Part shown: one piece after another, positions 4,829 to 8,515 of the stretch
Layout of the letters: each line of letters starts with the position of its first letter
Position numbering within the stretch: position 1 is the stretch's first letter
Origin: Propionibacteriaceae bacterium UBA4569
GTDB taxonomy: Bacteria; Actinomycetota; Actinomycetes; Propionibacteriales; Propionibacteriaceae
Length of the DNA: 8,558 bases
NCBI GenBank assembly: GCA_002387005.1
Contig: DGKN01000026.1
Location: forward strand, 17,839-26,396
Reading direction: 5' to 3'
Position numbers and translations under genes: made by a program
The notes under the pieces: generated by a model
The model's input: only the letters and a program-made list of their open reading frames with translations
What the model was told of the DNA's origin: nothing
The model's database searches: none

Positions 4829-5722
4829 TCAGCCTTGGGCAAGCAGGCGGGCGATGGCCGAGGCCTGGGCGGCCATCGAGCACTGCGGGGCGTCGGTGCC
4901 GGCATCTGGCAGGCAGGCGTGGTCCTGGCCGGTGGTGAACAGCGAGAGGATCACCATCCGGTTGTCAACGGTGATGATGGTGACATCGTTGAACTGTGCC
5001 TCATCGCCGGAGGCGGGGAGCAGGGTGACGAGGCGGTAGCTGGCATTGGTGTCGGCGTCGTCGACACCAGCGCCGGTGACTGGGAACTCGGTGGCCGGAG
5101 TCACATCCAGGGTGTAGCCCGAGGGCGGGACGATCGTCTTCGCGCAATCCTTGAAGTATTGCCGATAGGTGCCGCGCGCGGCCGCGGCCTGGGAGGTGGT
5201 CTCGAACTGGAGGATGGCCGCGTATCCCGTCCCCGCACCCGAATAGGAGCGCACCAGGGTCTGCTGCTGGCCATGTGCGAGGGTCTGCTCACAGGCAGTC
5301 AGCGGTGACTGGAGTTGGCTGACCGCTTCCGAGCCGATGGCGTCCGATCCCGTGACCGTCATGTCGCCTGGGGCATTGAAGTAGAACAGGTCGGTTCCGG
5401 GCAGGTTGGCCGCAGAGAGTGCGCGAGAGGCGGCGGACGGGGCCGGGCTGGGGGTCGCCGAACTGCCCACGTCCACCGACCGTCCAGTGGTGGGGAACTG
5501 GTCGTGAGCGTCGAGCTGGACGAATGCCGTGCCGCCCAGCAGGCTGAGCCCCACGGCAGCCGCGGCGATGCCCATCCGACGCCTCGCTCGGCGGCCCTCC
5601 GCGAGCTGGCGCACCCTTGTGGCCGGCAGGGGGTCCACGGCGTCGAAGGTGCGCTCGGAGAACCGGCGGAAGATCTCGTCTGTGGAGGCCTCCAACTGGT
5701 CGAGGTCATCATGGTCGGTCAT
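4829..5722 (-). CDS. Single-pass membrane protein, probable anti-sigma/sensor partner of the adjacent sigma factor
   Basis: This 297-residue protein is not recognised as a named family. Residues 1-49 are a charged cytoplasmic segment ending in an Arg-rich stretch (GRRARRR). One membrane helix follows (about 50-70, MGIAAAAVGLSLLGGTAFVQ), then a Ser/Pro/Ala linker (about 86-106) and a roughly 190-residue extracytoplasmic domain. That domain has four Cys (C144, C193, C270, C281), enough for two disulphides. Positive charge before the helix predicts the N-terminus inside. The ATG at 5722 has a perfect Shine-Dalgarno AAGGAGGT (5735-5728) 5 bases upstream. Position behind a sigma factor gene, same strand, plus this topology suggest it tethers and inhibits the sigma factor through its N-terminal segment (inference). 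That segment contains no Cys, so it lacks the HxxxCxxC zinc-binding anti-sigma motif. A stand-alone lipid- or wall-associated protein is the alternative. Confidence 0.75.
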   Translation of the reverse strand: MTDHDDLDQLEASTDEIFRRFSERTFDAVDPLPATRVRQLAEGRRARRRMGIAAAAVGLSLLGGTAFVQLDAHDQFPTTGRSVDVGSSATPSPAPSAASRALSAANLPGTDLFYFNAPGDMTVTGSDAIGSEAVSQLQSPLTACEQTLAHGQQQTLVRSYSGAGTGYAAILQFETTSQAAAARGTYRQYFKDCAKTIVPPSGYTLDVTPATEFPVTGAGVDDADTNASYRLVTLLPASGDEAQFNDVTIITVDNRMVILSLFTTGQDHACLPDAGTDAPQCSMAAQASAIARLLAQG

Positions 5723-5873: not shown

Positions 5874-6353
5874 TCATCGCGACGGGTCTCCCATCACCTT
5901 CGCCAACGCGGCCCGGCCCCGGGACAGACGGGCCTTCACTGTCCCGGCAGGTGCACCCACCTCGACAGCGATCTCCTGAACGGACAGGTCACACAAGTGG
6001 TAGAGAACGACCGCGCGGCGCTGGTCCTCAGGAATCTGTTGCAGGGCCCGCTCCAGGGCGACCTTCGTGGGGTCCGGCTCGGCCGGGCTCCGGTCCTCCA
6101 GGGCACGGTCGGGCTGGCGCATTCCGCGGGTGACGCGACGCCACCGGCTCACGGCCAATCGGTAGGCCACGGTCCGTACCCAGGCCTCGGGATACTGCTC
6201 CTCGTCCAGCTGTTGGCGCTTGTCCCAGGCCCGGACGAAGGCTTCCTGAGTGCAGTCCTGGGCTTCGGCGAGGTTTCCGCACATGGCACGGATCTGCGCC
6301 ACGACACGAGGAAAGGAGGCGGCGTAGAACGCGTCGAAGTCCTCCTCGCTCAT
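5874..6353 (-). CDS. Short RNA polymerase sigma factor, ECF type (SigE-family-like)
   Basis: This 159-residue sigma-70-family protein consists of only regions 2 and 4, as in extracytoplasmic-function sigma factors. Region 2 (about residues 4-73) contains [14 protein letters not shown], the [13 protein letters not shown] core-binding/-10 segment and [21 protein letters not shown] charged linker (about 75-97) leads to region 4 (about 98-152), with [20 protein letters not shown] and the helix-turn-helix [23 protein letters not shown] for -35 recognition. Its short length and sequence style resemble the actinobacterial SigE-family group. ATG at 6353 is used; a GTG directly before it (6356) could serve instead. 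No good Shine-Dalgarno is seen on either, so leaderless translation is possible. The gene points away from rplS and precedes a membrane protein likely to control it. The regulon cannot be read from sequence. Confidence 0.88.
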
Positions 6354-6385
6354 CACAGGGCCATTCTCGCCACATCCGGGGTCAT

Positions 6386-6537: not shown

Positions 6538-6885
6538 ATGCATCAGCTGATCCAGGAGCTCGACAAGGCTTCGCTGCGTACCGACATCCCCGAGTTCCGT
6601 GCGGGTGATTCCGTCAAGGTGCACGTGAAGGTCGTCGAGGGCAACCGTTCCCGTGTCCAGGTCTTCGCCGGCGTCGTCATCGCCCGCAATGCCGGTGGCA
6701 TCCAGGAGGCATTCACCGTTCGCAAGGTGAGCTTCGGCACCGGCGTGGAGCGTACCTTCCCGCTGCACTCGCCGATCATCGAGAAGATCGAGGTCGAGCG
6801 TCGCGGCGATGTCCGTCGCGCCAAGCTGTACTACCTGCGTGGTCTGCGCGGCAAGGCCGCCAAGATCAAGGAGAAGCGCGACTGA
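6538..6885 (+). CDS. rplS: 50S ribosomal protein bL19
   Basis: This 115-residue basic protein is the expected length for bL19, which sits at the 30S-50S interface of the ribosome. Conserved family stretches are visible: [56 protein letters not shown] (residues about 60-79), [20 protein letters not shown] and [18 protein letters not shown] at 6538 follows GAGGA (6526-6530) by 7 bases. In most bacteria rplS follows trmD directly; here the two are separated by 5.5 kb holding sdhCAB and the sigma/membrane-protein pair, so it needs its own promoter. It is followed by a strong hairpin terminator, so it is likely transcribed alone. Codon use is strongly biased, as for a highly expressed ribosomal gene. 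Confidence 0.98.
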
Positions 6886-6910: not shown

Positions 6911-6943
6911 GAATGGCCCCGGCACTCGTTGCCGGGGCCATTC
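6911..6943 (+). terminator. Hairpin terminator after rplS
   Basis: A perfect 14-bp stem pairs 6911-6924 with 6930-6943 (GAATGGCCCCGGCA / complement) around the 5-base loop CTCGT, 25 bases after the rplS stop. No T-run follows. It isolates rplS from the signal peptidase genes. Confidence 0.85.
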
Positions 6944-7035: not shown

Positions 7036-7659
7036 GTGACCCCGACGAATCGTTCGCACGTGCGCCTGGCGGTCGCCGTCGCGGTGACCGCGTTGGTGGC
7101 GCTGGCCTTACGGCTCCTGGTGGCCAGTCCCTACACCGTTGACACCCGGGCCATGGAGCCAGTCGCCGAGGCCGGGGACGTCGTGGTGGGGCTGCGCGCG
7201 CACCACGTCGAACGCGGCGACGTGGTGGTCTTCCGCACCCCCAGCGACTGGATGGCCGGCCGTTCCGGAGCCAGCACCGCGGTCTCGCGTGTGGTCGGAG
7301 AGCCGGGGGACGAGGTTCGCTGCTGCGATGCCCAAGGCCGGCTCGTCGTGAACGGCATCTCGCTGTCGAGCGTGCCGGAGCCTGACCCCATCGCCTTCCG
7401 GGTCGTCGTGGGGCCGGGACAGTTGTTCGTCCGTGGCGACAACCCCGCCCACAGCGTTGACTCACGCTGCTTCCTGCACACCCTGGGCCCCGGTGCCCTC
7501 GTCCCCGCCGAACAGGTGAGGGCCCGACTCACCACCACCGTCTGGCCGCTCAACCGGCTGGGCGCCCTGCCGGGCAAGCCGGCGCTCACCACGGCTCCTG
7601 AGGGGCCAGGCGACCTCACCGGATCCATCGTCGAGGCAGCATCCGACGTGCCCTGCTGA
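7036..7659 (+). CDS. Signal peptidase I-like protein lacking both catalytic residues (predicted pseudoenzyme)
   Basis: This 207-residue S26-family protein has one N-terminal membrane helix (about 10-30) and an extracytoplasmic domain. Family boxes remain in order: the catalytic-Ser box reads DTRAMEP (36-42), then ERGDVVVF (about 58-65), the catalytic-Lys box reads VSRVVGEPGD (83-92), and GDNPAHSVDSR (134-144) is well kept. The nucleophile Ser before Met is Ala39 (GCC, 7150-7152) and the general-base Lys is Ser84 (TCG, 7285-7287), so peptide-bond cleavage is not expected. The frame is intact and family positions around the losses persist, arguing against simple decay. Four Cys (C96, C97, C145, C207) match those of the next gene. 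GTG at 7036 follows GAGAGG (7021-7026) by 9 bases. It may be a partner, regulator or substrate-holding subunit of the active peptidase downstream; function is unproven. Confidence 0.88.
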   Translation: MTPTNRSHVRLAVAVAVTALVALALRLLVASPYTVDTRAMEPVAEAGDVVVGLRAHHVERGDVVVFRTPSDWMAGRSGASTAVSRVVGEPGDEVRCCDAQGRLVVNGISLSSVPEPDPIAFRVVVGPGQLFVRGDNPAHSVDSRCFLHTLGPGALVPAEQVRARLTTTVWPLNRLGALPGKPALTTAPEGPGDLTGSIVEAASDVPC

Positions 7660-7696: not shown

Positions 7697-7717
7697 GCTC
7701 AGGAGGAGGCAGTACCC

Positions 7718-8515
7718 GTGACAGACGAGTCCACCAAGCGCATCGATGCCGGAGTCCAGCCCGCGAGGGCGCGTACGGCTGGCGGGCGTGTCGGCTCGGT
7801 GCTGGGCGAGTTGCTCGTCGTCGTCATCGGCGCCCTGATCATCTCGTCATTGCTGCGTGCCTTCATGGGGCAGATGTTCATCATTCCGTCCGGGTCGATG
7901 CAGAACACCTTGCAGATCGACGACCGGGTGGTGGTCTCCAAGATCAGCACCTACCACCGCGGTGACATCGTCGTCTTCGAGGACCCGGCCAACTGGCTCC
8001 AGGAGGAACCCGCAACCCCCTCGGCCGGTCGACGGGTGATGGAGCTCATCGGGGTGCTCCCGTCCTCGTCCACCAACCACCTCGTCAAGCGGGTGATAGG
8101 CCTGCCCGGTGACCACATCACCTGCTGCGACGACCAGGGGCGGATGAGCGTCAACGGCAAGGCACTCGACGAGACCTCCTACCTGTACGTCTCCCCGGAG
8201 GGCACGCAGTCGCGTCCATCCGACTTCGACTTCGACGTGGTCGTGCCCGCTGGACGCATCTTCGTGATGGGCGACCATCGCGACATGTCCGGCGACTCAC
8301 GCTGCCATCTGCAGGACATCACCAACGACGGCCAGGTCGAGGGGATGGGGGCCTTCGTCCCGCAGAGCAGGGTGGTCGGACCCGTCGTGGCGATCGCCGC
8401 ACCATTCGACCGCTGGACGAGGTTCAGCGTCCCTGACACCTTCACCCACGTGCCCGATCCGACCGCCGCCGCTCCCGAGCAGCCAAGCGTGAGCGTCACC
8501 AACCCCAACTGCTGA
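7718..8515 (+). CDS. lepB: Type I signal peptidase, catalytically complete
   Basis: This 265-residue membrane protease removes signal peptides from exported preproteins on the outer face of the cytoplasmic membrane. One N-terminal membrane helix is at about 28-46. Box B is IIPSGSMQNTL with nucleophile Ser60; RGDIVVFEDP (81-90) follows; box D is LVKRVIGLPGD with general-base Lys124 (122-132); box E is GDHRDMSGDSR (185-195). All residues for the Ser/Lys dyad are present. Its only four Cys are C136, C137 (adjacent), C196 just after DSR, and C265 as the last residue, the same pattern as the upstream paralogue. The Ala/Pro-rich tail (about 247-256) is probably flexible. GTG at 7718 follows AGGAGGAGG (7701-7709) by 8 bases. 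It is 58 bases behind its paralogue and overlaps rnhB by one base, so it is likely an operon. Confidence 0.95.
   Translation: MTDESTKRIDAGVQPARARTAGGRVGSVLGELLVVVIGALIISSLLRAFMGQMFIIPSGSMQNTLQIDDRVVVSKISTYHRGDIVVFEDPANWLQEEPATPSAGRRVMELIGVLPSSSTNHLVKRVIGLPGDHITCCDDQGRMSVNGKALDETSYLYVSPEGTQSRPSDFDFDVVVPAGRIFVMGDHRDMSGDSRCHLQDITNDGQVEGMGAFVPQSRVVGPVVAIAAPFDRWTRFSVPDTFTHVPDPTAAAPEQPSVSVTNPNC

Follow-up and report, generated by a model that had tools for sequence, protein, structure and literature searches.

A signal peptidase I paralogue without its catalytic dyad next to lepB in Propionibacteriaceae

How did a signal peptidase I gene that lacks both catalytic residues come to lie directly upstream of lepB, and what could its product still do? 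We addressed both questions for an open reading frame in an 8,558-nt stretch of a Propionibacteriaceae draft genome that is 79% complete (G000:C10:17839-26396; below, the window), comparing it with related loci and proteins. We call its product the dead copy and the family of its orthologues the dead lineage.

The open reading frame and its locus

The window carries, in order, the end of rimM, trmD, sdhC-sdhA-sdhB, two minus-strand genes, rplS, the open reading frame at 7036-7659 and lepB (Table 1). The frame runs from a GTG start to a TGA stop without internal stops, and its GC3 of 0.86 is like that of the neighbouring genes. Its translation contains PYTVDTRAMEP and TAVSRVVGEPGDE, which span positions 39 and 84. 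An initial annotation had described loss of both dyad residues in boxes reading TRAM (Ala39) and VSRVVG (Ser84); the translation, with codons GCC and TCG, bears this out, and, as had also been claimed, the RGDVVVF and GDNPAHSVDSR boxes persist and the frame is intact; it has 207 open codons. The protein scores 82.1 bits against Pfam Peptidase_S26 (PF10502; cut-off 22.9), which places it in the type I signal peptidase family and also matches the adjoining lepB, and it passes TIGR02227 (80.2 against a cut-off of 47). It has neither the Ser nucleophile nor the Lys general base of an active signal peptidase I. A hydrophobic N-terminal helix (residues ~4-28) precedes the S26 domain, and the predicted model has the signal peptidase fold with an N-terminal membrane helix, aligning with E. 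coli signal peptidase over residues 28-179. In an HMM alignment of 283 rows from fetched loci and retrieved proteins, a redundant set gathered by similarity and hence no unbiased sample, 261 rows have Ser and Lys, 18 lack Lys, all of them from the dead lineage, and four are partial alignments.

The lepB product bears the complete dyad and resembles the dead copy in predicted build. The dead copy lies directly upstream, separated by a 58-nt gap that contains the ribosome-binding-site-like AGGAGGAGG. The same order of rplS, dead copy and lepB is found in genome G061, so that both loci place a dead paralogue beside an active enzyme, the arrangement of Staphylococcus aureus spsA, which we take to adjoin spsB. 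The dead-gene stop in G061 overlaps lepB by 4 nt if the lepB start is the first TTG (an alternative GTG lies 98 nt downstream), and the two genes of the tandem pair in G023 overlap by 7 nt, counted at the first possible start. Gene order and these likely frame overlaps suggest that the dead copy is made together with LepB. Between rplS and this gene pair stands a very stable hairpin (–35.4 kcal/mol, z –5.0, folded over 56 nt) that is a possible terminator of rplS despite the absent T run; no promoter was recognised for the dead copy, upstream of which the hairpin sits.

This is a housekeeping locus (rplS, lepB, rnhB): the dead copy is flanked by rplS, lepB, ECF sigma, sdh and trmD genes in the window, and rnhB comes next in relatives. 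Neither a sortase nor a pilin gene was recognised within the window, and Rfam gave no match at gathering score anywhere in it. The two minus-strand genes, at 4829-5722 and 5874-6356, code for an ECF-type sigma factor that matches Pfam Sigma70 r2 and r4 and, after it, a 297-aa product that has no Pfam match, shows a hydrophobic stretch by eye and is perhaps the anti-sigma factor of its neighbour.

Table 1 Features of the dead-copy locus, in window coordinates
Feature	Position	Strand	Remark
rplS (ribosomal protein L19)	6538..6885	+	Flank upstream of the dead-copy slot
Hairpin 3' of rplS	6911..6943	+	14-bp stem, 5-nt loop, without T run
Dead signal peptidase I paralogue	7036..7659	+	207 aa; Pfam, translation
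Ala39 (GCC), nucleophile position	7150..7152	+	Ser in active enzymes
Ser84 (TCG), general-base position	7285..7287	+	Lys in active enzymes
Cys145, right after the DSR box	7468..7470	+	9/9 lineage members
C-terminal signature I-V-E-A-A-S-D-V-P-C	7627..7656	+	Common to the dead copy and dyad-bearing first copies elsewhere
Cys207, C-terminal	7654..7656	+	9/9 lineage members
AGGAGGAGG, ribosome-binding-site-like	7701..7709	+	Ahead of the lepB GTG start; by eye
lepB, signal peptidase I with Ser60 and Lys124	7718..8515	+	265 aa; Peptidase_S26 match

Residue states and constraint in the dead lineage

The dead lineage comprises nine distinct members, all from Propionibacteriaceae: P0001 (the window), P0002-P0007, P0122, which is the full-length counterpart of a cut gene in genome G011, and P0264, a Tessaracoccus sp. 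SD287 protein whose gene matches the G061 copy. The proteins closest to the window copy come from 'Candidatus Luteococcus avicola' (94% identity) and Luteococcus sanguinis (88%), among the best 7999 candidates scored, which marks the window as Luteococcus-like; the protein searches scored the best 7999, 7996 and 7999 candidates, by most words in common.

In the order P0001-P0007, P0122, P0264, the nucleophile states are AAAAAASAS and the base states SSSSSSGGV, giving the pairs Ala/Ser, Ala/Gly, Ser/Gly and Ser/Val. The constant loss is that of Lys, absent from all nine, while Ser is lost in seven, and Ala/Ser is fixed only in six Luteococcus-type sequences. The claimed loss of both residues holds across orthologues for the base and not universally for the nucleophile, two members having kept Ser. 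With Lys gone from every member and Ser still present in P0007 and P0264, loss of the base probably preceded that of the nucleophile. A tree test that united the Ala bearers to the exclusion of P0007, which bears on one versus two origins of Ala, gave p 0.31.

We looked for the two patterns that would speak against a kept paralogue. Stops or frameshifts would point to decay, and all nine frames are open. A compensating Ser/Lys pair is unlikely to be shared, because no Lys or His is invariant among the nine members; the nearest candidates for a replacement base are Lys181 (7/9, including all six Luteococcus-type sequences; Arg in P0007, Pro in P0122) and His148 (6/9), and a shared replacement dyad was rejected on these counts. 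The earlier description of a kept pseudo-peptidase paralogue therefore stands as to the absent dyad, the dyad-bearing LepB alongside and the open frames, and falls as to a fixed Ala/Ser pattern.

The dead lineage evolves faster than LepB. Between the same pairs of sources, identity is 65.2 versus 78.1, 64.4 versus 75.5, 49.5 versus 63.0, 69.3 versus 79.3, 50.2 versus 64.9, 42.4 versus 54.0 and 37.5 versus 46.5% for dead copy and LepB, respectively, which puts the dead copy 9-15 points below the LepB that accompanies it; P0005, P0006 and P0007 were paired here with the LepBs P0147, P0148 and P0150 by record match and same source, not from DNA. What persists is the predicted fold, along with most cleft residues and two Cys pairs. 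Among the 33 columns invariant in the nine members are Thr37, Met40, Arg60-Gly61, Arg85, Asp92, Cys96-Cys97, Ser143 and Cys145, together with Glu200, Asp204 and Cys207 in the tail, and five of seven SpsB cleft positions are retained in seven to nine of the nine members. The most drifted member is the P0264/G061 copy, with Ser kept, Val for Lys, the DSR box changed to HSA, and Y33, V35 and V83 replaced by A, A and M. Across 7249-7287 of the window, Luteococcus-type dead copies are without most of the loop from Trp72 to position 84, which LepB, P0122 and P0264 retain.

A Cys after the DSR box and a C-terminal Cys occur in many Propionibacteriaceae signal peptidases, the LepB of the window and related LepBs included, where they possibly form a second disulfide. 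One Luteococcus subgroup (P0151, P0152, P0154, P0156, P0159 and P0187) lacks the two of them. P0264 has kept both despite its broken DSR box, and the corresponding Tessaracoccus sp. SD287 locus (L035 5198-5893, the same region as in G061) retains the Cys residues and the tail signature despite its drift. Over 293 rows, a DSR-Cys and a Cys within the last four residues are both present in 155, both absent in 135 and discordant in three, two of which are frames cut by contig ends. On a 131-row tree these counts reduce to three independent Cys changes, which agree under nearly every pairing (sign test, median p 0.25), and with three changes only, a Cys145-Cys207 disulfide is no more than suggested.

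Distribution and origin

The dead lineage was recognised in at least three genomes (G000, G011 and G061) among 198 family and 391 order genomes, counts that are lower bounds because the best 14 candidates per genome were scored in the family search and the best seven in the order search. A gap separates these three from the rest in the order search (E 3.0e-82, then 1.9e-48), whose profile included the G061 protein, so that the high G061 score there arises by construction; with the first profile the G061 copy scored E 2.4e-29, in the range of ordinary LepBs. It is assigned to the lineage by gene position, by its tail and by a tree in which it sits on a very long branch (length 4.46, support 98/96). 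In G011 the dead gene and lepB are on separate contigs, each at a contig end, so that adjacency is established for the window and G061. A contig scan for relatives found nine loci, among which Tessaracoccus sp. SD287 was the sole lineage member, near relatives of the window being liable to be missed. The dead copy is dispensable, since none was seen in G001, a genome of the same genus with the order rplS-lepB-rnhB and one dyad-bearing enzyme in the rplS-rnhB stretch, or in G060, which gave one match only among its best 14 candidates.

Where could the dead copy have come from? Within 13 genomes fetched from genera g19 and g23, rplS and lepB are separated by a first signal peptidase copy that bears both Ser and Lys, in the order rplS, copy 1, lepB, rnhB. 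These 13 had been chosen for two nearby matches in the family search; of 18 genomes fetched, G120 and G128 had one enzyme in the stretch, and in G141 the copy 1 gene is split across two contigs and was read as two pieces. The Cys-ending tail signature, picked only after the tails had been inspected, is present in all 13 first copies, in all nine dead-lineage members and in none of 34 other rows. The dead copy thus shares both marks of the first copies, the rplS-proximal slot and the C-terminal signature. Because a dyad-bearing copy occupies the same slot with the same tail signature in these 13 genomes, we infer that an old tandem duplication took place and that its first copy died in the dead lineage; a second enzyme copy would then probably have died base first and been kept thereafter.

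With the long-branched G061 copy left out of the tree, the dead lineage sits on one long branch with support 100/100. A clade uniting it with the first copies is absent from the best tree, in which branches are long, and imposing that clade costs 0.13 log-likelihood units, at a p of 0.386 that does not reject it. An origin from the Luteococcus LepB group is disfavoured by 7.9 log-likelihood units, at an AU p of 0.055 that does not reject it.

Precedents and possible roles

Two dead signal peptidases are already known. In S. aureus, SpsA is dispensable and without two conserved catalytic residues (PMC12445088; PMC2721850), in agreement with the analogy drawn in the initial annotation; like the dead copy, it is a paralogue of this kind in a genome whose single active signal peptidase is essential. 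The two belong to different phyla, and the dead lineage appears to have arisen by a tandem duplication of its own at rplS-lepB. Judged by gene order and tail signature, and by the published description of SpsA, its origin would be actinobacterial and separate. The better-studied functional precedent is Streptococcus pyogenes SipA (LepA), which lost its dyad, kept its cleft and is essential for pilus assembly (PMC4049620). The dead copy likewise combines a lost dyad with a kept cleft, with other replacement residues. The SipA gene belongs to a pilus operon that relies on a class B sortase (PMC4049620), whereas the dead copy occupies a housekeeping locus. The Ala at the nucleophile position also recurs in engineered SpsB S36A (PDB 4wvg; PMC4704075); that protein is a laboratory mutant with Lys kept, whereas the dead copy is natural and has lost the base too. 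The first copies of g19 and g23 share its slot and Cys-ending tail and keep Ser and Lys. The open-licence literature yielded no dead signal peptidase in Actinobacteria and no paper on signal peptidase in Luteococcus. New here is a lineage of seemingly independent origin at a housekeeping locus, in a slot where other genera have counterparts that bear the dyad.

By analogy with SipA, we propose, with about even confidence, that the dead copy is a membrane-anchored, non-cleaving binder of the signal peptides of exported proteins, working alongside LepB. Its ancestor would be the first copy in a tandem pair, a copy whose dyad is intact in other genera; the base and next the nucleophile would have been lost, and the protein would afterwards have been kept for binding, as proposed for SipA. 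Like LepB, it would be embedded in the membrane and expose its domain to the outside, holding signal-peptide C-regions in a cleft unable to cut. More tentatively, and with confidence short of even, it may be a receptor translated with LepB that holds selected preproteins at the membrane exit, delaying or steering their processing, and hence a pseudoprotease of general secretion and not of pilus assembly. The binder model is unproven even for SipA, because peptide binding could not be shown in vitro (PMC4049620) and the crystal structure has the peptide antiparallel with the oxyanion hole blocked (PMC12984324). For the dead copy itself, several observations also count against it: evolution faster than that of LepB, the small number of genomes in which the lineage was recognised, no copy seen in G001 or G060, drifted cleft and DSR residues in G061, and a hairpin ahead of a gene with no recognised promoter.

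The strongest competitor, which we nevertheless regard as rather unlikely, is that the dead copy is a regulatory or structural subunit of LepB, pairing with it in the membrane and tuning its amount, stability or substrate choice without binding signal peptides. The direct upstream position, the possible 4-nt overlap in G061 and the similar predicted build would fit such a partner, as would the grouping of the LepBs from the window and the sources of P0005-P0007 (five rows, 99/94). The LepBs of G011 and G061 fall outside that group, however, G001 has lepB and no dead copy, and cleft residues would need no retention in a subunit of this kind. A role like that of SipA, in assembling sortase-linked surface proteins or pili, would account for the lost dyad and kept cleft, and sortases are indeed present in all three lineage genomes (G000, G011 and G061). 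They are also present in G001, G060 and G023, which are without the dead copy. The sortase link was rejected on this 6/6 count, and a pilus role is quite improbable, because sortase content does not follow dead-copy presence in these six genomes; the housekeeping locus, with no recognised sortase or pilin gene in the window, argues the same way.

Two further readings concern whether the protein has any kept function or a catalytic one. A redundant second signal peptidase that lost catalysis and is drifting towards loss would explain the faster evolution than LepB, the patchy presence and the change of DSR to HSA in Tessaracoccus sp. SD287/G061. We consider such slow decay improbable: all frames are open, the identity deficit relative to LepB is only 9-15 points, and Cys96, Cys97, Cys145, Cys207, Glu200 and Asp204 are invariant. 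A rough neutral expectation of seven to eight stops among the six Luteococcus-type sequences (~281 amino-acid changes from hand-summed branch lengths, times a stop-to-missense ratio of 0.027) compares with none seen, an argument weakened because protein databases favour intact frames. Catalysis through other residues could draw on the invariant Ser143 and Thr37, with Lys181 or His148 at their 7/9 and 6/9 frequencies, but no Lys or His is invariant and Lys181 lies just outside the part of the model aligned with the E. coli enzyme, which makes a surviving enzyme very improbable. The non-cleaving binder remains the reading we prefer.

The dead lineage offers a traceable case in which a secretion protease seemingly lost the base first and the nucleophile later but kept the fold and a large part of the peptide cleft. 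If the dead copy does bind signal peptides, it would add to export a non-enzymatic holding step of a kind not described for housekeeping secretion in the literature examined. Dead copies are annotated as active enzymes, since the window protein passes TIGR02227 and P0002 and P0004, both without the dyad, carry the name 'signal peptidase I' in public records; such annotations would distort any tally of signal peptidases as drug targets.
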